Source: Paracoccus seriniphilus (GTDB lineage Bacteria > Pseudomonadota > Alphaproteobacteria > Rhodobacterales > Rhodobacteraceae). From it: 64,000 nt of DNA. Location: positions 201,001 to 265,000 of the forward strand of contig NZ_CP067129.1 in assembly GCF_028553745.1 (NCBI RefSeq), given 5' to 3'. Position numbers and translations under genes: made by a program. Shown in pieces: positions 11,551 to 23,854 of this stretch (positions are counted from its first letter, which is position 1; each line of letters starts with the position of its first letter). The notes under the pieces were generated by a model. The model was given only the letters and a program-made list of their open reading frames with translations. It had not been told where the DNA came from and searched no databases.

Positions 11551-11577
11551 GCTATGAGAAAAACAAGGAGCAGGCCC

Positions 11578-12213
11578 ATGCGCCATCAGTGGCTGGACGA
11601 TGACGACGACAATGATGACGATGACCGCCCTGACCAGGGTGACAAGGAAGGTGGCCTGGGCCTTCCCGATGGCGACAATATCGGCAAGCTGTATTTCAAA
11701 TCGCGTACGGTGATCGTGGCCGGCGCGATCAATGACAAGCTGGCACAGCGCACCGTCGCCCATCTGCTGGCCCTGGCCGAGGAAAGCGACAAGCCGATCA
11801 ACATGCTGATCAGCTCGCCCGGGGGGCATGTTGAATCGGGTGACATGATCCATGACGTGATCAAGTTCATCCGTCCCACCGTGCGCACGATCGGTTCGGG
11901 CTGGGTGGCCAGTGCTGGCGCATTGATCTTTGTCGGTGCGGCCAAGGAAAACCGCTATTGCCTGCCCAATACCCGCTTTCTGATTCACCAGCCCTCGGGC
12001 GGGATTGGCGGAACCTCGTCGGACATGATGATCCAGGCCGAACAGGTTCGTTTGATGCGGGATCGCCTGAACCAGATCTTTGCGGATGCGACGGGTCAGA
12101 CGGTGGAACGGATCGAAAAGGACACGCATCGCGATTTCTGGCTGAACACCCAGGAAGCGCTGGATTACGGCCTGCTGGGCAAGGTCATTCGTTCGGTCGA
12201 CGAACTGAAGTGA
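11578..12213 (+). CDS. ClpP-like serine protease with Asp-rich N-terminus
   Basis: 211 residues. The fold signature of ClpP is clear: SSPGGHVESGD oxyanion region, nucleophile S112 in GWVASAGA, H137 in RFLIHQPSGG, and acidic residues D182/D186 in the EKDTHRDFWLNTQEALDYGLLG block. All three catalytic positions are kept, so it is probably active. Unlike housekeeping ClpP, residues 7-23 are almost all Asp/Asn (DDDDDNDDDD) and no clpX follows. Start chosen at 11578 because AAGGAG lies 7 bases upstream. Its place between frmA and fghA suggests a role tied to C1 metabolism, for example protein turnover during formaldehyde stress; that is inference. Confidence 0.85.
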   Translation: MRHQWLDDDDDNDDDDRPDQGDKEGGLGLPDGDNIGKLYFKSRTVIVAGAINDKLAQRTVAHLLALAEESDKPINMLISSPGGHVESGDMIHDVIKFIRPTVRTIGSGWVASAGALIFVGAAKENRYCLPNTRFLIHQPSGGIGGTSSDMMIQAEQVRLMRDRLNQIFADATGQTVERIEKDTHRDFWLNTQEALDYGLLGKVIRSVDELK

Positions 12214-13498: not shown

Positions 13499-15319
13499 AT
13501 GAAATATCTGCTGAACAGTGCCCTGGCGGCACTGCTGCTGACCAGTGCCACGGCCTATGCGAACGAAAGTGTCATGGCCGAAATGGCCAAGCCGGAACAA
13601 TGGGCGATCCAGATGGGTGATTACGCGAATACGCGTTATTCCGAGCTGGACCAGATCAACAAGGACAATGTCAAAGATCTGCGCGTGGCGTGGACATTTT
13701 CAACCGGCGTCCTGCGTGGCCATGAGGGCAGCCCCCTTGTGATCGGCGACATGATGTATGTCCACACGCCGTTCCCCAACAAGGTTTTCGCCCTGGACCT
13801 GGCCAATGACGGCAAGATCGTCTGGCGCTATGAACCCCAGCAAAACCCCGAAGTCATTGCGGTCATGTGCTGCGACACGGTCAACCGCGGGGTCGCCTAT
13901 GCCGATGGCATGATCCTGCTGCATCAGGCGGATACGACGCTTGTGGCGCTGGATGCCAAGACCGGCGAAGAGAAATGGAAGGTCCAGACCGGCGATCCGT
14001 CGATCGGCGAAACCAACACCGCAACGGTTCTGCCGGTCAAGGACAAGGTGATCGTCGGCGTATCCGGGGGTGAATATGGTGTGCGTGGCCGCGTCACAGC
14101 CTATAGCCTGGCCGATGGATCAGAGGTCTGGAAAGCCTATTCCACCGGCCCCGATGACGAAATGCTGGTGGATCCGGAAAAGACCATGCATCTGGGCAAG
14201 CCCATCGGTCCCGACAGCAGCCTGAACAGCTGGGAAGGCGATCAGTGGAAGATTGGCGGCGGCACGACCTGGGGCTGGTATTCCTATGATCCCGATCTGA
14301 ACCTGATCTATTACGGCACCGGGAACCCCTCGACCTGGAATCCCTCTCAACGGCCGGGTGACAACAAATGGTCGATGACCATCATGGCCCGCGACGCCGA
14401 CACCGGCATGGCCAAATGGTTCTATCAGATGACGCCCCATGACGAATGGGACTTTGACGGCGTCAATGAAATGATCCTGACCGATCAGGAAATCGATGGC
14501 GAACAGCGCAAGCTGCTGACCCATTTCGACCGGAACGGTCTGGGCTATACGCTTGATCGCGAAACCGGCGAGTTGCTGGTGGCCGAGAAATTCGATCCTG
14601 CTGTCAACTGGACCACCGGCGTCGATATGGATCCGGAATCCGAAACCTATGGTCGTCCTGCCGTGGTCGCCGAATATTCGACCTCTCAGAATGGCGAGGA
14701 TACCAACACCACGGGCGTCTGCCCCGCGGCACTGGGATCCAAGGACCAGCAACCGGCAGCCTTCTCGCCCAAGACCAACCTGTTCTATGTTCCCACCAAC
14801 CATGTCTGCATGGATTACGAACCCTTCCGTGTAGCCTATACGGCCGGTCAGCCCTATGTCGGGGCAACGCTTTCGATGTTCCCCGCACCTGACAGCCATG
14901 GCGGAATGGGCAATTTCATTGCCTGGGACAATGTCAACGGCGAGATCAAATGGTCGCTGCCCGAACAGTTCTCGGTCTGGTCCGGTGCGCTGGCAACGGC
15001 GGGGGATCTGGTCTTCTATGGCACGCTGGAAGGCTATCTGAAGGCGGTAGACGCCGAAACGGGTGAAGAGCTTTACAAGTTCAAGACTCCGTCCGGCGTG
15101 ATCGGCAATGTCATGACCTATGTCCATGGCGGCAAGCAATATATCGGCATTCTGTCCGGTGTGGGCGGTTGGGCCGGTATCGGTCTGGCAGCGGGTCTGA
15201 CGAACCCCAATGACGGTCTTGGCGCCGTCGGCGGTTATGCCGCGCTGAGCGACTATACCGAGCTTGGCGGCCAGCTGACCGTCTTTGAACTGCCCGGTGA
15301 TGCGCCGGTCGAGGGCTAA
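13499..15319 (+). CDS. xoxF: Lanthanide-dependent methanol dehydrogenase XoxF (PQQ enzyme)
   Basis: 606 residues with a Sec signal (cleavage after about residue 21, TAYA). Periplasmic oxidation of methanol using PQQ. The vicinal cysteines C124-C125 that cap PQQ are present, as are tryptophan-docking beta-propeller repeats. The DEWDFDG motif holds the catalytic aspartate D318 and the extra aspartate D320 two residues later; this D-x-D pair marks lanthanide (XoxF) rather than calcium (MxaF) enzymes, which have alanine there. Followed by xoxG and xoxJ. No mxaI-like small subunit is near. Confidence 0.96.
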
Positions 15320-15433: not shown

Positions 15434-16000
15434 ATGAAAGCCATCACCAGCCTTGCGGCGCTGGTTGTCGCGGCGTCGCTGGCCGGACCGGCCATGGCGC
15501 AGTCCGAGACCACATCAGACGCTTCAGCCGGAACCGAAGGGGCGACATTGCCGAACGGCATGGATATCACGCCCGACTACACGGAATATGGCCGCTGGTA
15601 TAACGCCGAAGGGATTCCGACCTACAAGATCGACGCGGATGGCAGCGTCGATTTCGCGACCTTCAACGGCTATCGCCGCTATTCTGCGGAATGCCATGTC
15701 TGTCACGGCCCGGATGGCGAGGGTTCGACCTATGCCCCGGCGCTGAAGGATTCGGTGTTGCGGCTGGATTACTATGATTTCCAGGAGATCGTCGCATCGG
15801 GCAAGCAAGAGGTGAACACCGCCCAGAACCAGGTGATGCCGGCATTTGGCACCAACAAGAATGTCTGGTGCTATATTGACGACATCTATGCCTATCTGGT
15901 CGCGCGGGGTACCGATGCCCTGCCGCGCGGACGACCGGCCAAGAAGGGACCGAAAACGGATGAATTCGCCGAGCAGGAAGATTCCTGCATGTCGATGTGA
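15434..16000 (+). CDS. xoxG: Cytochrome c XoxG (electron acceptor of XoxF)
   Basis: 188 residues with a signal peptide ending about residue 22 (GPAMA). Single heme-binding CHVCH (C87, C90, H91) and a likely axial methionine M135 in QVMPAFG. It corresponds to the cytochrome c553i gene (cycB) known beside xoxF in Paracoccus denitrificans. Takes electrons from reduced PQQ in XoxF to the terminal cytochrome chain. A GGGAGG site precedes the ATG. xoxJ starts one base after the stop. Confidence 0.92.
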   Translation: MKAITSLAALVVAASLAGPAMAQSETTSDASAGTEGATLPNGMDITPDYTEYGRWYNAEGIPTYKIDADGSVDFATFNGYRRYSAECHVCHGPDGEGSTYAPALKDSVLRLDYYDFQEIVASGKQEVNTAQNQVMPAFGTNKNVWCYIDDIYAYLVARGTDALPRGRPAKKGPKTDEFAEQEDSCMSM

Positions 16001-16001
16001 C

Positions 16002-16817
16002 ATGCGCAGGCTGATCATCACGGCAATATCAGGCTGGCTCTGCGTGGCACATATGGGTGCCGCGCAGGTCGCCGACCTGAGATCGACCACCAGTTTCCGC
16101 GTTTGCGCCGATCCGGCCAATGCCCCCATGTCGCACAAGGATGGCAGCGGCTTTGAAAATCGCCTTGCCGCGCAGTTCGGCGAATGGCTGGACCTGCCGG
16201 TGACCTATAGCTGGTTTCCCTCGGGGATGGGCTTCATTACCAAGACGCTGCGCGCGGGCACCTGCGATGTGGTGATGGGATATGCGCAGGGCGATGAGCT
16301 GGTGCAGAATACCAATCATTACTACACCTCGGTCTTTGGTATCGTGACGCGCAAGGACAGCGCGCTGGCCGATGTCGACCACCTGGGCGATCCGGTGCTG
16401 AAGGATCATCCCATCGGAGTCATCGCGGGCAGCCCGCCTGCGACCATCATGGCGCGGGCCGGTCTGGCCAAGGACATGCGCGGGGGTGATCTGTTCGTGG
16501 ACCGCCGCGTCAAGGATCCGGTGGGTCGGATGATCGACTCGGTCCGGGATGGCAGCCTGGATGCCGCCGTGCTGTGGGGGCCTTTGGCTGGCCCGCGCAT
16601 CAAGGATGACCCTGACCTGCAGTTCACGCCGCTGCTAAGGGAAAAAAGCGGCCCGAAGATGTTCTATCGCATCACCATGGGGGTGCGTCCGGGCGAGCAG
16701 GAATGGAAACGCCAGCTGAACAGCCTGATCCGCCGCCATCAGGATGAAATCAACCAGACGCTGCGCGAGGCCGGGGTGCCCCTTGTGGACGATTATGGCA
16801 AGGAGATGTTGCCATGA
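16002..16817 (+). CDS. xoxJ: XoxJ, periplasmic solute-binding-like protein
   Basis: 271 residues, signal peptide of about 21 residues. It has the fold signature of family-3 solute-binding proteins (FRVCADPANAPMSHKDGSGFENRL, then GTCDVVMGYAQGDELV) and is the expected xoxFGJ partner thought to help activate XoxF in the periplasm. The ATG at 16002 is adjacent to the xoxG stop; the longer frame would run inside xoxG. The stop overlaps the next gene by 4 bases. Confidence 0.9.
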   Translation: MRRLIITAISGWLCVAHMGAAQVADLRSTTSFRVCADPANAPMSHKDGSGFENRLAAQFGEWLDLPVTYSWFPSGMGFITKTLRAGTCDVVMGYAQGDELVQNTNHYYTSVFGIVTRKDSALADVDHLGDPVLKDHPIGVIAGSPPATIMARAGLAKDMRGGDLFVDRRVKDPVGRMIDSVRDGSLDAAVLWGPLAGPRIKDDPDLQFTPLLREKSGPKMFYRITMGVRPGEQEWKRQLNSLIRRHQDEINQTLREAGVPLVDDYGKEMLP

Positions 16818-17347
16818 TCCGGCTGGCGATCGCGATATCTGTCGTGATCGCCGTCCCCGCATGGGCCGATATCGCCGAGCCCTCAGGATTTCGCGGCGAA
16901 CCCTATACGGCCCCGGTGCCATCGACCCTGCAAGGGGCCAAGGTGATCGATGCCGAAATGGCCCTGACGCTTTGGGCCGAAGATGCGGGTTTTGTCGATG
17001 TCTATCCGCGCACCCTGAAGCCGCAGGGGCTGCCCGAGGGCACTATCTGGCAAGAGCCGCGCCATGACACCATTCCCGGTGCGATCTGGCTGTGGAATAC
17101 CGGTTATGAAAGCCTGACAGCGGAAGAGATGCAGCGTCTGGAAGACGGTCTGGCCAGCATGACGCGGGGCAATCCGGATATGCCGCTGGTGATCTTCTGT
17201 CGGGCTGATTGCTGGATGAGCTGGAACGCGGCGAAACGTGCCGTCGATCTGGGTTATCGGAAGGTCATGTGGTTTCCCGGTGGCATTGATGAATGGCAGG
17301 ACGCGTTGGGACCGGATCTGGTCAGGGCTGAACCTGTCGCCCCGTGA
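16814..17347 (+). CDS. PQQ-associated CXXCW-motif rhodanese-like protein
   Basis: 177 residues with a signal peptide (about residue 19). C-terminal rhodanese-like domain in which the active loop is CRADCW, the motif that defines the 'PQQ-dependent catabolism-associated CXXCW' family. Two cysteines spaced by two residues suggest thiol redox or metal handling rather than plain sulfur transfer. It overlaps xoxJ by ATGA, so it belongs to the xoxFGJ operon. Its 3' end overlaps the convergent beta-propeller gene by 26 bases. Confidence 0.85.
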   Translation: MIRLAIAISVVIAVPAWADIAEPSGFRGEPYTAPVPSTLQGAKVIDAEMALTLWAEDAGFVDVYPRTLKPQGLPEGTIWQEPRHDTIPGAIWLWNTGYESLTAEEMQRLEDGLASMTRGNPDMPLVIFCRADCWMSWNAAKRAVDLGYRKVMWFPGGIDEWQDALGPDLVRAEPVAP

Positions 17348-18817: not shown

Positions 18818-18899
18818 ATTTCTTCATCCTCCCGTGAACCCGTGTGGAGCATGATCGCCACCGGCGTCATCGTCCATACGACCAAAGACTTAGGAAAAC

Positions 18900-18920
18900 A
18901 TTCCCGTGCCGCGCGGGAAT
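18900..18920. promoter_or_regulatory. Inverted repeat in the divergent promoter region
   Basis: ATTCCCG (18900-18906) and CGGGAAT (18914-18920) with a seven-base loop, followed by AAAAAA. It sits midway between the SRPBCC and the ABC-binding-protein genes, where a shared operator is expected. The A-run, not T-run, on the plus strand argues against a terminator for either gene. Confidence 0.4.
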
Positions 18921-18978
18921 AAAAAACGTCTTGCCCTGCGGGATGCCCGGGCCCAACATGAGCTGGGGAGAGTGCAAA

Positions 18979-20178
18979 ATGTTCAGGGAAATCCTTGCTT
19001 TTCTGGCGATTGCCGGATTGTTTGCGACGGCTGCAGTTGCCCAGCAGCCATCGCCCGAGGTGATCCGCGCGGCCGTGTTGCGGGTCGACAGGCCGGATCT
19101 GCCGCCGATCTCTCGTCTTGAACTGGCGACCGATGATCTGGGTTTTGCCGGGGCGCGTCTGGCCATCGAGGACAATGACACCACCGGGCGCTTCATGGGG
19201 CAGAAATTCGAGGCCGAAGAAGTGGTCGTCGCGCCCGAAACAGCCGCCGAGGAACTGGAGCGGCTGATTGCCGAGGATGTGGGTTTCGTCGTGCTTCTGG
19301 CCGATGATGACACCACGCTGGCGCTGGCCGATCAGGCGGGGGACCGCATCACATTGCTGAATGCGGCGGCACGTGGTGACAATCTGCGTGGCCGCGACTG
19401 TCGCTTCAACATGATCCACGTGGCCCCCAGCCATGCAATGATCGCCGATGCGCTGGCCCAGTTCCTGATGTGGAAGAACTGGTCGCGCTGGTTCCTGATT
19501 GAAGGCAGCCATGCCGCAGATACCGATCTGGCCGAGGCCTATCGCCGGGCAGCGCGCAAATTCGGGGCCAAACTGGTCGAGGAACGCCTGTATGAAGATA
19601 CCGGCGGGGCGCGGCGCACGGATTCCGGCCATGTGCAGGTGCAAAAACAGATCCCGGTCTTTACCCAGCGTGCGGCGGAACATGACGTGATCGTTGCCGC
19701 AGATGAGGCAGATGTCTTTGCCGCCTATCTGCCCTATCAGGTCTGGGATCCGCGCCCGGTCACCGGATCTGCCGGGCTTGTTCCGCGCAGCTGGCATCCG
19801 GCAATGGAATCTTGGGGTGCGTCCCAGTTCCAGAACCGTTTCGAGGCATTGGCCAACCGCCCGATGCGGGAAATCGACTATCAGGTCTGGCTGGCCCTGC
19901 GCATGCTGGGCGAGGCCGCGACACGCAGTGGCTCGTCCGATACAGAAACCCTGCGCGAATATCTGTTGTCCGACAGTTTCGAAGTGGCGGGCTTCAAGGG
20001 GCAGAAGCTGACCCTGCGCGACTGGGACCACCAGCTGCGCCAGCCGATCCTGCTGACCACGGGGTTGCTGATGACCTCGGTCAGCCCGCAAGAGCAATAT
20101 CTCCACCAGACCAGCCGGCTGGATACGCTGGGTATCGATCGGGCTGAAACCGAATGCAAATTCCCGGAGGCAGAATGA
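18979..20178 (+). CDS. ABC transporter substrate-binding protein, PQQ/lanthanide-associated (PedA1/LutA-like)
   Basis: 399 residues with a signal peptide (about residue 22, ATAAVAQ). Type-1 periplasmic binding fold related to the branched-chain amino-acid binding group: FLMWKNWSRWFLIEG, EAYRRAARKFGAKLVEERLYEDTGG, DVIVAADEADVF. Homologues are PedA1 of Pseudomonas putida and LutA of Methylorubrum, which belong to ABC systems needed for lanthanide supply. Starts at 18979 where a GGGGAGAG site precedes. Overlaps the next gene by ATGA. Ligand unproven here. Confidence 0.82.
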   Translation: MFREILAFLAIAGLFATAAVAQQPSPEVIRAAVLRVDRPDLPPISRLELATDDLGFAGARLAIEDNDTTGRFMGQKFEAEEVVVAPETAAEELERLIAEDVGFVVLLADDDTTLALADQAGDRITLLNAAARGDNLRGRDCRFNMIHVAPSHAMIADALAQFLMWKNWSRWFLIEGSHAADTDLAEAYRRAARKFGAKLVEERLYEDTGGARRTDSGHVQVQKQIPVFTQRAAEHDVIVAADEADVFAAYLPYQVWDPRPVTGSAGLVPRSWHPAMESWGASQFQNRFEALANRPMREIDYQVWLALRMLGEAATRSGSSDTETLREYLLSDSFEVAGFKGQKLTLRDWDHQLRQPILLTTGLLMTSVSPQEQYLHQTSRLDTLGIDRAETECKFPEAE

Positions 20179-21134
20179 AACCGCTTATCGTTATCGGCCT
20201 TTGTCTGGCGGCAACGCCTTCTGTCGCGAACCGCGTCTTTGTCAGCAATGAAAAGGGAAATGACGTCACGGTTCTGGACAGCGCCACATTCGAGGTGATC
20301 GGCACCTATCCGGTCGGGAACCGTCCGCGCGGGATCACCATCAGCCCTGATGGGCGCGAGTTGTATGTCTGTGCCTCGGATGACGATCTGGTGCGGGTCT
20401 TCGATCCGCAGACCATGGAAGAAATGCACACCCTGCCATCGGGGCCTGACCCGGAACTGTTCGTCCTGCATCCCTCGGGCAATCCGCTGTATGTCGCCAA
20501 TGAGGATGACAATCTGGTGACCGTCGTGGATACCCAGACCCACAAGGTGCTGGCCGAAATTCCCGTGGGGGTCGAGCCCGAAGGAATGGGGGTCAGCCCG
20601 GATGGGAAGGTGGTGATCAATACGTCTGAAACGACCAACATGGCGCATTTCATCGATTCGGAAACTTTCGAGATCTTCGGCAATGTGCTGGTCGATTCAC
20701 GCCCACGTTTTGCGCAGTACAATCACGATGGTTCCAAGCTATATGTCAGTTCCGAGATCGGCGGCACGGTCAGCGTGATCGACCCGCAGACGCAGGCGAT
20801 TACCCACAAGATCGAATTCGACATTCCGGGCGTGCTGCCCGAGGCGATCCAGCCGGTCGGCGTGCGGATCAGCAATGATGGCAAGAAGGTCTTCGTGGCC
20901 CTGGGGCCCGCGAACCGTGTTGCGGTGATCGACGGCGAAACGGATGAGGTTCAGGACTATCTGCTGGTCGGCCAGCGGGTCTGGCAAATGGCCTTCACGC
21001 CGGACGAGAAATATCTGTTCACGACCAATGGCAATTCCAACGACGTTTCGGTGATCGATGTCGAAGCGGTCAAGGTCGTGAAATCCATCGCCGTCGGACA
21101 GCAGCCCTGGGGCGTTGTCGTGGCGCCGGACTGA
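20175..21134 (+). CDS. Exported YVTN beta-propeller protein of the ABC operon (PedA2-like)
   Basis: 319 residues, signal peptide about 18 residues. Seven regular repeats such as RVFVSNEKGNDVTVLD, LYVANEDDNLVTVVDT, LYVSSEIGGTVSVIDP and LFTTNGNSNDVSVIDV. Matches the 'PQQ-dependent catabolism-associated beta-propeller' type coded beside the binding protein. The start at 20175 is supported by GGAGG 4 bases upstream and the ATGA overlap. It probably works with the binding protein in the periplasm. Confidence 0.82.
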   Translation: MKPLIVIGLCLAATPSVANRVFVSNEKGNDVTVLDSATFEVIGTYPVGNRPRGITISPDGRELYVCASDDDLVRVFDPQTMEEMHTLPSGPDPELFVLHPSGNPLYVANEDDNLVTVVDTQTHKVLAEIPVGVEPEGMGVSPDGKVVINTSETTNMAHFIDSETFEIFGNVLVDSRPRFAQYNHDGSKLYVSSEIGGTVSVIDPQTQAITHKIEFDIPGVLPEAIQPVGVRISNDGKKVFVALGPANRVAVIDGETDEVQDYLLVGQRVWQMAFTPDEKYLFTTNGNSNDVSVIDVEAVKVVKSIAVGQQPWGVVVAPD

Positions 21135-21160: not shown

Positions 21161-21718
21161 GTGATACGTTTCATCATGCTGATGGCACTTATGGCGGGGA
21201 CCGCAACGGCCCAGCAAGCGGCCGCCCAGTCCGATGACGACATGGCGGCAACGGCTGTGGAAATGTCTCAGGACGCAGACGATGACGACGACGATGATGA
21301 GGAGGAGGAAAGCGGCGAAGCGGGCGTCCACGAGGCCGGGGCCAGGTTCGACTATGGCTTTTCGGGCCTGATGGCGCGTGACAACCGCACCCAGCTGGCG
21401 CCCTTGACGCTGGCAGCAGGCAAGCCCGTGGCCACGGCGGAATACACGCTCAAGTCGGGCGGCTACTACCGTCTGGACATCAATGCCGATGGCAGCCAGG
21501 AACTGGCCCTGTCAGGGGGGGATTTCTTCCGCGCGATCTGGGTGAATGAGATCGTCATCGAGGATATCGAAATCCGGCCGATGGGGGTCCACAGTCTGGA
21601 ATTCGACGATGCCGGCACCGCGACCATCAGCTTTGTTGCCGTTGTTCCCGGGCGCTATACGCTGTCGATTCCCGGATCGAAGGGCGAGACGCAGCAAGCC
21701 GTCTTCAATATCCGCTGA
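21161..21718 (+). CDS. Exported acidic protein of the lanthanide-type ABC operon, unknown function
   Basis: 185 residues. Signal peptide of about 17-22 residues, then an acidic tract (residues about 37-52) made almost only of Asp and Glu, then a compact C-terminal domain of about 110 residues rich in beta strand (AEYTLKSGGYYRLDIN ... GTATISFVAVVPGRYTLSIP), reminiscent of a cupredoxin-like or immunoglobulin-like fold but without obvious copper ligands. I do not recognise the family. It sits between the propeller and the ATPase genes, 2 bases before the latter, so it is part of the transporter operon. An acidic tract in such a setting suggests binding of hard trivalent cations; this is inference. 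Confidence 0.75.
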   Translation: MIRFIMLMALMAGTATAQQAAAQSDDDMAATAVEMSQDADDDDDDDEEEESGEAGVHEAGARFDYGFSGLMARDNRTQLAPLTLAAGKPVATAEYTLKSGGYYRLDINADGSQELALSGGDFFRAIWVNEIVIEDIEIRPMGVHSLEFDDAGTATISFVAVVPGRYTLSIPGSKGETQQAVFNIR

Positions 21719-21720
21719 CG

Positions 21721-22446
21721 ATGACCCTCAGCGCGCTGGAGATAGATCAGGTCAGCCACAGCTACGGATCTGTCCGGGCGTTGACGGATGTGTCCTTCGA
21801 TATCCCCAGGGGGCGCTTCACGGCACTCTTGGGGATCAATGGCGCGGGGAAGACGACGCTCTTTTCCCTGATCACGCGGCTTTATGACAATAATTCCGGC
21901 AGGATCCGCGTCGCGGGCCATGATTTGCGTCGCGAACCGGCGCAGGCGCTGGCCCGTCTGGGCGTGGTGTTTCAAAGCCGGGCGCTGGATGCCGATCTGA
22001 CCGTGCTGCAGAACCTTGCCTATCACGCCAGCCTGCATGGCATCGGCCGGGTCAGGGCCCGCGCGCGCATCGACGAGGTGATCGCACAGGTCGGGCTGAG
22101 AGAAAAGCTGGGCGAAAGGGTCGCCGCGCTTTCGGGCGGACAGCAGCGACGGGCCGAGATCGCCCGCGCCCTGATCCACCGCCCCGACGTGCTGTTGCTG
22201 GATGAGGCCACCGTTGGGCTGGATGTGAAATCGCGCGCCGAAGTCCTGTCGCTGACGCGCAGACTGGTCGCCCAAAGCGGTGTTTCGGTTCTTTGGGCAA
22301 CGCATATCATGGACGAGATCCAGCCCGATGACGGGCTGGTCATCCTGCATCGGGGCAGGGTGTTGAAAAAGGGACTCATGGCAGAGATTTCTGGCGCAGA
22401 TGGGCTGACGCGATCATTCCTGGACCTGACGGGAACCGCTGCATGA
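21721..22446 (+). CDS. ABC transporter ATP-binding protein (PedB/LutE-like)
   Basis: 241 residues. Walker A GINGAGKTT, signature LSGGQQRR, Walker B LLLDEAT and H-loop WATHIMDEI are intact. It belongs to the CcmA/NodI-like ATPases paired with ABC-2 permeases, the type encoded with PQQ alcohol dehydrogenases. Stop overlaps the permease start by ATGA. Confidence 0.88.
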   Translation: MTLSALEIDQVSHSYGSVRALTDVSFDIPRGRFTALLGINGAGKTTLFSLITRLYDNNSGRIRVAGHDLRREPAQALARLGVVFQSRALDADLTVLQNLAYHASLHGIGRVRARARIDEVIAQVGLREKLGERVAALSGGQQRRAEIARALIHRPDVLLLDEATVGLDVKSRAEVLSLTRRLVAQSGVSVLWATHIMDEIQPDDGLVILHRGRVLKKGLMAEISGADGLTRSFLDLTGTAA

Positions 22447-23264
22447 CCCGCAAGGCGTTTCCTGCCAGCGCATGGCTGATCGCATTCGCGGGGATCACCC
22501 GGCGCGAGTCACTGCGTTTCGTCAATCAGCGCGGGCGCTTTCTGGCGGCTCTGGTGCGGCCACTTGTCTGGCTGTTCATCTTTGCCGCCGGGTTTCGTGC
22601 GGTGCTGGGACTGTCGATCACCGAACCCTATGACACCTATGTTCTGTATGAAGTCTATGTGACGCCGGGCCTTTGCGCGATGATCCAGTTGTTCAACGGC
22701 ATGCAGTCCTCGCTGTCGATGGTCTATGACCGTGAAACAGGGGCGATGCGGACATTGCTGGTCAGCCCCTTTCCCCGCTGGTTCCTGCTGGGGTCGAAAC
22801 TGCTTGCCGGCGTCATCGTGTCCATCATTCAGGTCTATACCTTTCTGGCCATCGCATGGCTGTGGGACATCCGCCCGCCACTGTGGGGATATGTTGCGGT
22901 CCTGCCGGCGCTGATCTTGTCGGGCCTGATGCTGGGCGCGATGGGGCTGTTCCTGTCATCGGCGATCAAACAGCTGGAGAATTTCGCGGGCGTGATGAAT
23001 TTCGTCATCTTCCCGATGTTCTTTGCCTCTTCGGCGCTCTACCCGCTGTGGCGGATGCGGGAAAGCTCGACGCTGTTGCATGACATTTGTGCCGTAAATC
23101 CCTTCACCCATGCGGTCGAACTGATCCGCTTTGCCCTTTACCTGCAGGTGAACTGGCTGTCGCTTGCGGTTGTTCTGGGCTGTCTGACCGCGTTTTTCGG
23201 TCTGGCGATCTTCATGTATGATCCCGGCAAGGGGCGTTGGAAAAACCGAAGGGGCAACGGATGA
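22443..23264 (+). CDS. ABC-2 type transporter permease (PedC/LutF-like)
   Basis: 273 residues, about six membrane segments. The motif region PRWFLLGSKLLAGVIVSIIQVYTFLAIAW (shown in part) and the late NPFTHAVELIRFAL are typical of ABC-2 permeases of the NodJ/PedC group. Partner of the preceding ATPase; the pair would drive the system with the two periplasmic proteins upstream. Note that ABC-2 permeases are usually exporters, so the direction of transport deserves care. Confidence 0.86.
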   Translation: MTRKAFPASAWLIAFAGITRRESLRFVNQRGRFLAALVRPLVWLFIFAAGFRAVLGLSITEPYDTYVLYEVYVTPGLCAMIQLFNGMQSSLSMVYDRETGAMRTLLVSPFPRWFLLGSKLLAGVIVSIIQVYTFLAIAWLWDIRPPLWGYVAVLPALILSGLMLGAMGLFLSSAIKQLENFAGVMNFVIFPMFFASSALYPLWRMRESSTLLHDICAVNPFTHAVELIRFALYLQVNWLSLAVVLGCLTAFFGLAIFMYDPGKGRWKNRRGNG

Positions 23265-23854
23265 AACTGACTGCAATCCTGACGGCCATTTTGCTGGCCG
23301 GTCCTGCCATGGCGGCCGATGGAACGGATCCCGACTGGCCGTGTATTCAGCGCAAGCAACCGCATCTCTCCTTGGGCCAGATGTGGAGTGGACCGATACC
23401 TGACGACCGGATCATGCAATTGGCGCAGGACGAACAGATTTCGGCGCTGGCCGCCCGGCTGGAACAGCGTCGCCTGCCCATTGAAACCGCCGAGGCCGAG
23501 ATCGCCGAATTCGCCGGGACAACGGACAATGACGGTTTGACCGCTCTGATGGTGGCCATCCTGAACCGGATCGAGCCAGACCGCTCGGCGCTGATCGAGG
23601 GGATCGCGCGCTATGGCCGAAAGCAGGTCCAGCTTGCACAGGCCATCGAAAAGCGGCGCGAAACCATGGCCCGGCTTGAAGCCGCCGATCCACCGGATTT
23701 CGACGCCATCGATGCCGAAGAAGAAGCCTTGGACTGGGATCAGCGCATCTTCATCGAGCGGCAGAAATCGCTGACCTATGTTTGTGAAACGCCGGTCATC
23801 CTTGAACAACGTGCCTTTGCGCTTGCCCGCGCCATTGCAGGGCATCTGCAATAG
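23261..23854 (+). CDS. Exported protein of unknown function, last gene of the ABC operon
   Basis: 197 residues. Signal peptide about 18 residues (AGPAMAA), mature part mostly helical and charged, with two cysteines (PDWPCIQRK near the N-terminus and TYVCETPV near the C-terminus) that could form a disulfide. I do not recognise a named family; an unknown exported protein is also found at this place in related lanthanide-uptake clusters. ATGA overlap with the permease gene. The stop is 7 bases from the convergent glf stop. Confidence 0.75.
   Translation: MKLTAILTAILLAGPAMAADGTDPDWPCIQRKQPHLSLGQMWSGPIPDDRIMQLAQDEQISALAARLEQRRLPIETAEAEIAEFAGTTDNDGLTALMVAILNRIEPDRSALIEGIARYGRKQVQLAQAIEKRRETMARLEAADPPDFDAIDAEEEALDWDQRIFIERQKSLTYVCETPVILEQRAFALARAIAGHLQ

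Follow-up and report, generated by a model that had tools for sequence, protein, structure and literature searches.

The handling of lanthanides in the periplasm is poorly understood, and LutC is one of its named but uncharacterised parts. The locus in this study raises the question of which protein is encoded between the beta-propeller gene and the ABC ATPase gene of a putative lanthanide operon in Paracoccus seriniphilus, and whether that protein handles the metal itself. An earlier reading of the 64,000-nucleotide stretch of DNA analysed here (the window), made from the letters alone, had proposed an acidic exported lanthanide-binding component of a distinct protein type. In the present analysis, the protein is best read as the LutC of a lut-type lanthanide operon, an identity assigned by gene order. 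The analysis thereby supplies LutC with a defined family, a probable fold ancestry, a residue shortlist for mutation and a genomic tie to dehydrogenases of the Asp type.

The gene is one open frame that encodes 185 amino acids from a GTG start, and the purine-rich GGGGGAGG sits just 5' of that start (Table 1). Its N-terminus is hydrophobic and, judged by eye from the translation, signal-peptide-like, so that the open frame, the signal-like start and the position between the propeller and ATPase genes were all confirmed as the sequence-only reading had them; export is predicted, and a periplasmic location is probable. The predicted pI is about 4.05 from residue 19 onward and about 4.9 for residues 60-185, and cysteine is absent from the entire protein. 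No Pfam or NCBIfam family scored above cut-off, and neither an EF-hand in these two collections nor the lanmodulin model NF053806 was matched. The protein thus resembles lanmodulin (LanM) as a small acidic exported protein linked to lanthanide use but has no EF-hands, and the earlier statement that it is not lanmodulin holds.

The gene is separated from the propeller stop by 26 bases and from the ATPase start by 2, and the ATPase and permease genes overlap by 4 bases; this tight arrangement makes it look part of one transcription unit. Between the CXXCW gene and the substrate-binding gene lies an opposite-strand pair (propeller-like and SRPBCC). The starts of the substrate-binding and LutG-like genes are internal ATG codons chosen within the listed open reading frames 18844-20178 and 23237-23854, respectively, and the LutG-like protein had no match in Pfam or NCBIfam. 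Elsewhere in the window, a ClpP-family protease (Pfam CLP_protease; 11554-12213, plus strand) carries an N-terminal Asp-rich stretch, LDDDDDNDDDD, which shows that acidic runs in the window also occur outside the lut operon.

Table 1. Features of the dehydrogenase and lut-type genes in the window, with the parts of the LutC-like protein
Feature	Position	Strand	Basis or remark
XoxF-type PQQ dehydrogenase, WDFDG (lanthanide-type Asp)	13499..15319	+	TIGR03075; XoxF by motif and neighbours
Cytochrome c, methanol metabolism-related (XoxG-like by position)	15434..16000	+	TIGR03874
XoxJ-like periplasmic protein	16002..16817	+	TIGR03871
PQQ-associated CXXCW protein	16814..17347	+	TIGR03865
Periplasmic substrate-binding protein (LutA-like by position)	18979..20178	+	TIGR03863
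Beta-propeller (LutB-like by position)	20154..21134	+	TIGR03866
LutC-like protein, predicted export, 185 aa	21161..21718	+	ORF and family searches
Signal-peptide-like N-terminus, residues about 1-18	21161..21214	+	By eye from translation
Acidic tract, residues 38-53	21272..21319	+	11 uninterrupted D/E at residues 40-50
Conserved core, residues 60-185, probably all-beta, seemingly cupredoxin-derived	21338..21715	+	Profiles; low-confidence models
ABC ATPase (LutE-like by position)	21721..22446	+	TIGR03864
ABC-2 type permease (LutF/PedC-like)	22443..23264	+	TIGR03861
Protein without known family (LutG-like by position)	23261..23854	+	Relatives occupy same place elsewhere

The excerpted text of the study on Methylorubrum (M.) extorquens AM1 (PMC7391723) describes a cluster, META1p1778-1787, that comprises genes for a binding protein (lutA), two exported proteins (lutB and lutG), an ATPase (lutE), a membrane protein (lutF) and a TonB receptor (lutH), as well as lanM; it states that LutD, the product of META1p1781, binds lanthanides. 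By elimination in the AM1 gene list, META1p1780 would be lutC. With La3+, loss of lutC impaired growth only slightly (lag of 9 h, 0.11 per h, against 0.16 per h for the wild type with La in Table 3 of PMC7391723). LutC was already named there as a hypothetical periplasmic protein, and the same excerpts make no mention of metal binding by LutC; in a literature search on lanthanide and LutC, this was by title the only paper on the topic. The gene of the window lies between a propeller and a LutE-type ATPase in an operon of binding protein, propeller, this gene, ATPase and permease. Moreover, a Methylobacterium-like locus (L126) runs in the order binding protein, propeller, member of the window protein's family, 80-aa exported protein, ATPase, permease, exported protein and TonB receptor, which is the order of META1p1778-1785 (PMC7391723), so that the family fills the lutC slot. 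The claim of a distinct protein type therefore survives only in part, since LutC had been named before.

In all five Methylobacterium-like loci (L125-L129, a label that is our reading), a small exported-looking gene directly follows the LutC-like gene; the protein in this LutD slot of L126, the only one tested, matched nothing in Pfam or NCBIfam. A three-EF-hand gene lies nearby in L125, L127 and L128, and the one tested, from L125, was recognised as lanmodulin (NF053806, 186 bits against a cut-off of 135). The window protein thus shares slot, gene order and an exported look with AM1 LutC, and its family supplies the slot gene of the Methylobacterium-like loci. It differs in its long acidic tract, whereas acidic runs in those five loci reach only 1-2, and the window operon has no small LutD-slot gene after LutC. 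By gene order, then, the protein is the LutC orthologue of a lanthanide operon and carries an acidic tail specific to its lineage.

Among 198 same-family genomes, 53 yielded a homologue, at 60 places, in a single-protein search that could miss diverged copies, and the nearest named relatives come from Paracoccus. The TIGR03864 ATPase exceeded its cut-off in 55 of these genomes, and 50 hold both genes (Fisher p 3e-37, 198 genomes, not corrected for kinship); three hold the homologue only, one of which is 83 percent complete and two of which have a sub-cut-off ATPase, and five hold the ATPase only. The gene was inspected in 61 loci, comprising 58 of the 60 homologue places and L031-L033. A propeller gene lies within 6 kb on the same strand in 56 of them, and the ATPase adjoins downstream in 41. 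Five loci are propeller-free (L049, L072, L077, L078 and L091), with the ATPase adjacent in four and neither gene in L077. Operon membership, as first read from the window, was thus borne out across genomes by adjacency and co-occurrence, and homologues were not confined to places outside xoxF, ped or lut loci, which had been named as a ground for doubting a lanthanide role. In L077 (9395-9832 and the next ORF), a LutC/PepSY-type pair stands about 100 kb away from the lut operon of that genome (L092), where no LutC gene was seen.

The proposed comparison of the gene with xoxF-type enzymes gave a clear association, of a wider kind than XoxF. An XoxF of at least 75 percent identity is present in only 22 of the 53 genomes that carry the LutC-like gene, and of the remaining 31, 29 carry another PQQ dehydrogenase, whose motif is EGWD[FYH]DG. 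Many of the loci L034-L071 belong to these 29 genomes, which pair a lut-type operon with such an enzyme and which, on their motif, are read as having lanthanide operons without an XoxF-type enzyme. According to excerpts of PMC5487730, PedE has Ser and Ca, and PedH has Asp, at the type-marking residue; Asp in the aligned column would accordingly be the lanthanide-type marker, the equivalence of the columns being our own reading. A PQQ dehydrogenase with the strict motif WD[FYH]DG occurs in 51 of 53 genomes with the LutC-like gene versus 6 of 145 without it (Fisher p 6e-38, 198 genomes, not corrected for kinship), a count that leaves out several more distant enzymes with Asp at the column but other motifs. 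The two exceptions with the gene are G191, which has no PQQ dehydrogenase match at E 1e-60, and G165, which has only a sub-cut-off enzyme of another motif. Any PQQ dehydrogenase match at E 1e-60 was seen in 13 of the 145 gene-free genomes; two of these matches (L152 and L155) are fragments that do not span the motif. The enzyme of the gene-free genome G083 has Ala at the Asp column. The genome of the window itself encodes a second methanol/ethanol-family PQQ dehydrogenase on contig C2 (L188:4458-6437), with Ser (DAWDFSGNN) where XoxF has Asp, and on this residue the enzyme is probably calcium-type.

The conserved part of the family is a core of about 120 amino acids, probably all-beta. A beta-rich domain had been proposed from the letters alone, and structure prediction agreed with it at low confidence: two AlphaFold models, from 4 and 5 sequences, show a core of mostly strand and are both poor (mean pLDDT 45 and 51). 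None of 36 close members matched a cupredoxin in Pfam, and the close-family profile found nothing significant in the PDB. The family profile nevertheless reaches Cupredoxin_1 proteins in a 398-genome sample of the phylum. Intermediate members match Cupredoxin_1 weakly and below cut-off (L131, 4e-4; L137, 6e-3), the profiles of close and distant members align end to end, and the distant (A3) profile, which includes three Cupredoxin_1 proteins, matches plastocyanin at E 0.002. In Foldseek with the second, low-confidence model, the top three rows were Cu nitrite reductases at E about 0.005-0.006, and no row reached E 0.001 or better. At the position of the outgroup cupredoxin His, 32 of 33 aligned close members have Leu; in the window protein, Leu stands at that position and Cys is lacking, so that these type-1 copper ligands are missing. 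Four distant members (L131, L135, L137 and L138) keep a Cys in the copper loop, which indicated that loss of the copper site is not family-wide. The conserved core therefore seems to be cupredoxin-derived, with the copper site lost in the branch of the window protein, a link weakened by profiles that pass through distant members and by poor models.

The core also holds conserved carboxylates. Positions E114, E137 and E147 are acidic in 44 of 44 aligned family members and D149 in 43 of 44. Outgroup cupredoxins are also acidic at E137 (3 of 3) and E147 (2 of 3), and less so at E114 (1 of 3) and D149 (0 of 3); the family is thus distinguished by E114 and D149 alone. On the usual layout of cupredoxins, these carboxylates would lie near the old copper end. 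The window protein is accordingly related to the cupredoxins (Pfam Cupredoxin_1; plastocyanin, Cu nitrite reductase) at the profile level, via distant members, and differs from them in the lost ligands and in the conservation of D149 and E114.

The best explanation overall, to which we give about an even chance, is that LutC has a copper-less cupredoxin-derived domain and acts in the periplasm, where it holds or hands on Ln3+. It would work alongside the substrate-binding protein, the propeller and the ABC transporter; its most likely task would be to hold or pass on Ln3+, free or chelated, and the core carboxylates may form or support the Ln3+ site. In the Paracoccus-like lineage, the poly-acidic tail may add low-affinity local capacity. 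What is shown is the open frame with its conservation, the operon membership and lutC position, the tie to dehydrogenases of the lanthanide type, the lack of copper ligands and the conserved carboxylates. Direct binding of Ln3+ is plausible, and it is inferred along with export to the periplasm, the direction of relay and the role of the tail. If LutC does bind Ln3+, it would represent a new fold for rare-earth binding, in which a copper site was replaced by a lanthanide site. A literature search that combined lanthanide, cupredoxin, periplasmic and transporter gave a single match, which concerns a copper protein.

The acidic tract had been described as a nearly pure Asp/Glu stretch of about 16 residues. 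The tract is real, with 13 of 16 residues acidic at 38-53 (DADDDDDDDEEEESGE), and its pure part is the run of 11. Across 20,000 composition-preserving shuffles, the longest run was 10. Among relatives, the longest D/E run is 12 in P. homiensis (L032) and 4 to 8 in 25 other loci, and it is at most 3 in the remaining 58 of 85 loci (overall range 0 to 12); the emphasis once laid on the tract as the defining feature cannot be kept, as it is not conserved. A reading that falls a little short of even is that the tract is a low-complexity run, without function or at most solubilising, grown by GAN-codon slippage on an ordinary LutC. The tract is indeed encoded as a string of GAN codons, run length varies widely among relatives, and there is no acidic tract in the LutC of P. 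alcaliphilus, a species of the genus to which the nearest named relatives belong. In opposition to this reading, runs of at least 6 occur in 7 of 942 coding-like ORFs, and all 7 belong to the LutC-like family; these ORFs, of at least 100 aa, come from L031-L093 and 22 kb of the window, that is, from LutC-gene neighbourhoods rather than whole genomes. Furthermore, an annotated PepSY protein directly follows the LutC gene in P. alcaliphilus and Ruegeria sp. AD91A, and an unnamed small look-alike of it does so in Haematobacter. Of the 85 loci (three seeds included), a run of at least 4 is seen in 27 and a neighbouring PepSY-type gene in 13, with no overlap between the two groups (Fisher p 0.007, uncorrected for kinship), which also speaks against a tract without function.

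This exclusion is no more than suggestive of an acidic tail that might stand in for a missing partner. LutD and LanPepSY are, like the window protein, small exported proteins tied to lanthanide use, and they directly follow LutC in some relatives, but they showed no sequence likeness to the window protein, and no such gene follows LutC in the window. In the window's genome, no convincing LanM was found (best E 0.115), nor was a relative of the PepSY protein, in a search without a positive control whose empty answer shows little. An unlikely, more ambitious combination is that a LutC cupredoxin swapped copper for a carboxylate Ln site at the same end of the fold and that the Paracoccus-like tail replaces a LanM/PepSY buffer; its standing was lowered slightly, since true cupredoxins also carry acidic residues at two of the four carboxylate positions. 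If it were true, one protein would do the work of two in Paracoccus-like bacteria without a LanM or PepSY partner.

LutC may instead work as a protein-protein adaptor, tethering the propeller or the binding protein to the ABC transporter without touching metal, its carboxylates keeping the fold or the interface; we regard this as possible but somewhat doubtful. The close linkage to the propeller in 56 of 61 loci agrees with an adaptor, and so does the phylum sample, in which the family profile matches 28 of the 398 genomes and 25 of these are among the 59 with a TIGR03866 propeller over cut-off; the other three matches (37 to 51 bits) lack a propeller and score above cut-off for Cupredoxin_1. 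An adaptor would also fit a gene that is optional in propeller operons. A propeller at E 1e-60 without a family match was present in 36 phylum genomes, and in the 20 of these loci that were inspected no family match was found at E 0.01; the propeller is followed directly by the ATPase and permease in 18, and the other two have neither gene within the fetched stretch. The LutC-like gene is thus an accessory that the system can do without. The two carboxylates common to ordinary cupredoxins are likewise what structural residues would give. On the other side, the next gene is that of a LutD-slot protein in 5 of 5 Methylobacterium-like loci, LutD being a lanthanide binder (PMC7391723), and a PepSY-type gene in 13 of 85 loci, which makes this a neighbourhood of small metal handlers.

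A further explanation, which we judge improbable, is that the ABC system carries a non-lanthanide cargo, for example by exporting a chelator or peptide, and that LutC serves this purpose. The ATPase and permease do resemble DrrAB-like and ABC-2 families in Pfam and NCBIfam, which include exporters, so that transport could run in either direction, and a figure legend of PMC12482762 places an ABC transporter and a TonB receptor in the secretion and reclaiming of Ln-chelating peptides. Against this stand the failure of lutE and lutF mutants in La-dependent growth and the authors' statement that a TonB-ABC system is needed for Ln to be incorporated into the cytoplasm (both in the excerpts of PMC7391723), together with the strong tie of the LutC-like gene to Asp-type enzymes. 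Finally, a copper or electron-transfer cupredoxin that serves the dehydrogenase is very improbable despite the cupredoxin ancestry and the Cys and Met kept in the copper loop by some distant members, given Leu at the His position in nearly all close members, the absence of Cys from the window protein and a cytochrome c already in the operon.

Several loci depart from the usual arrangement. In a stretch from Roseomonas (L236:6311-8836), with no propeller annotated in the part shown, as well as in stretches from Sinorhizobium (L212:10424-12769) and Ruegeria (L235:9651-11965), an extra substrate-binding, permease and ATPase set lies beside LutC. In a diverged cluster (L052, L053, L055 and L209), the LutC-like gene precedes the propeller, and the binding protein where this is visible, and the nearby ATPase is below the TIGR03864 cut-off or absent. 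The L209 copy terminates an IMG/VR contig on which the remaining ORFs appear phage-like by eye.
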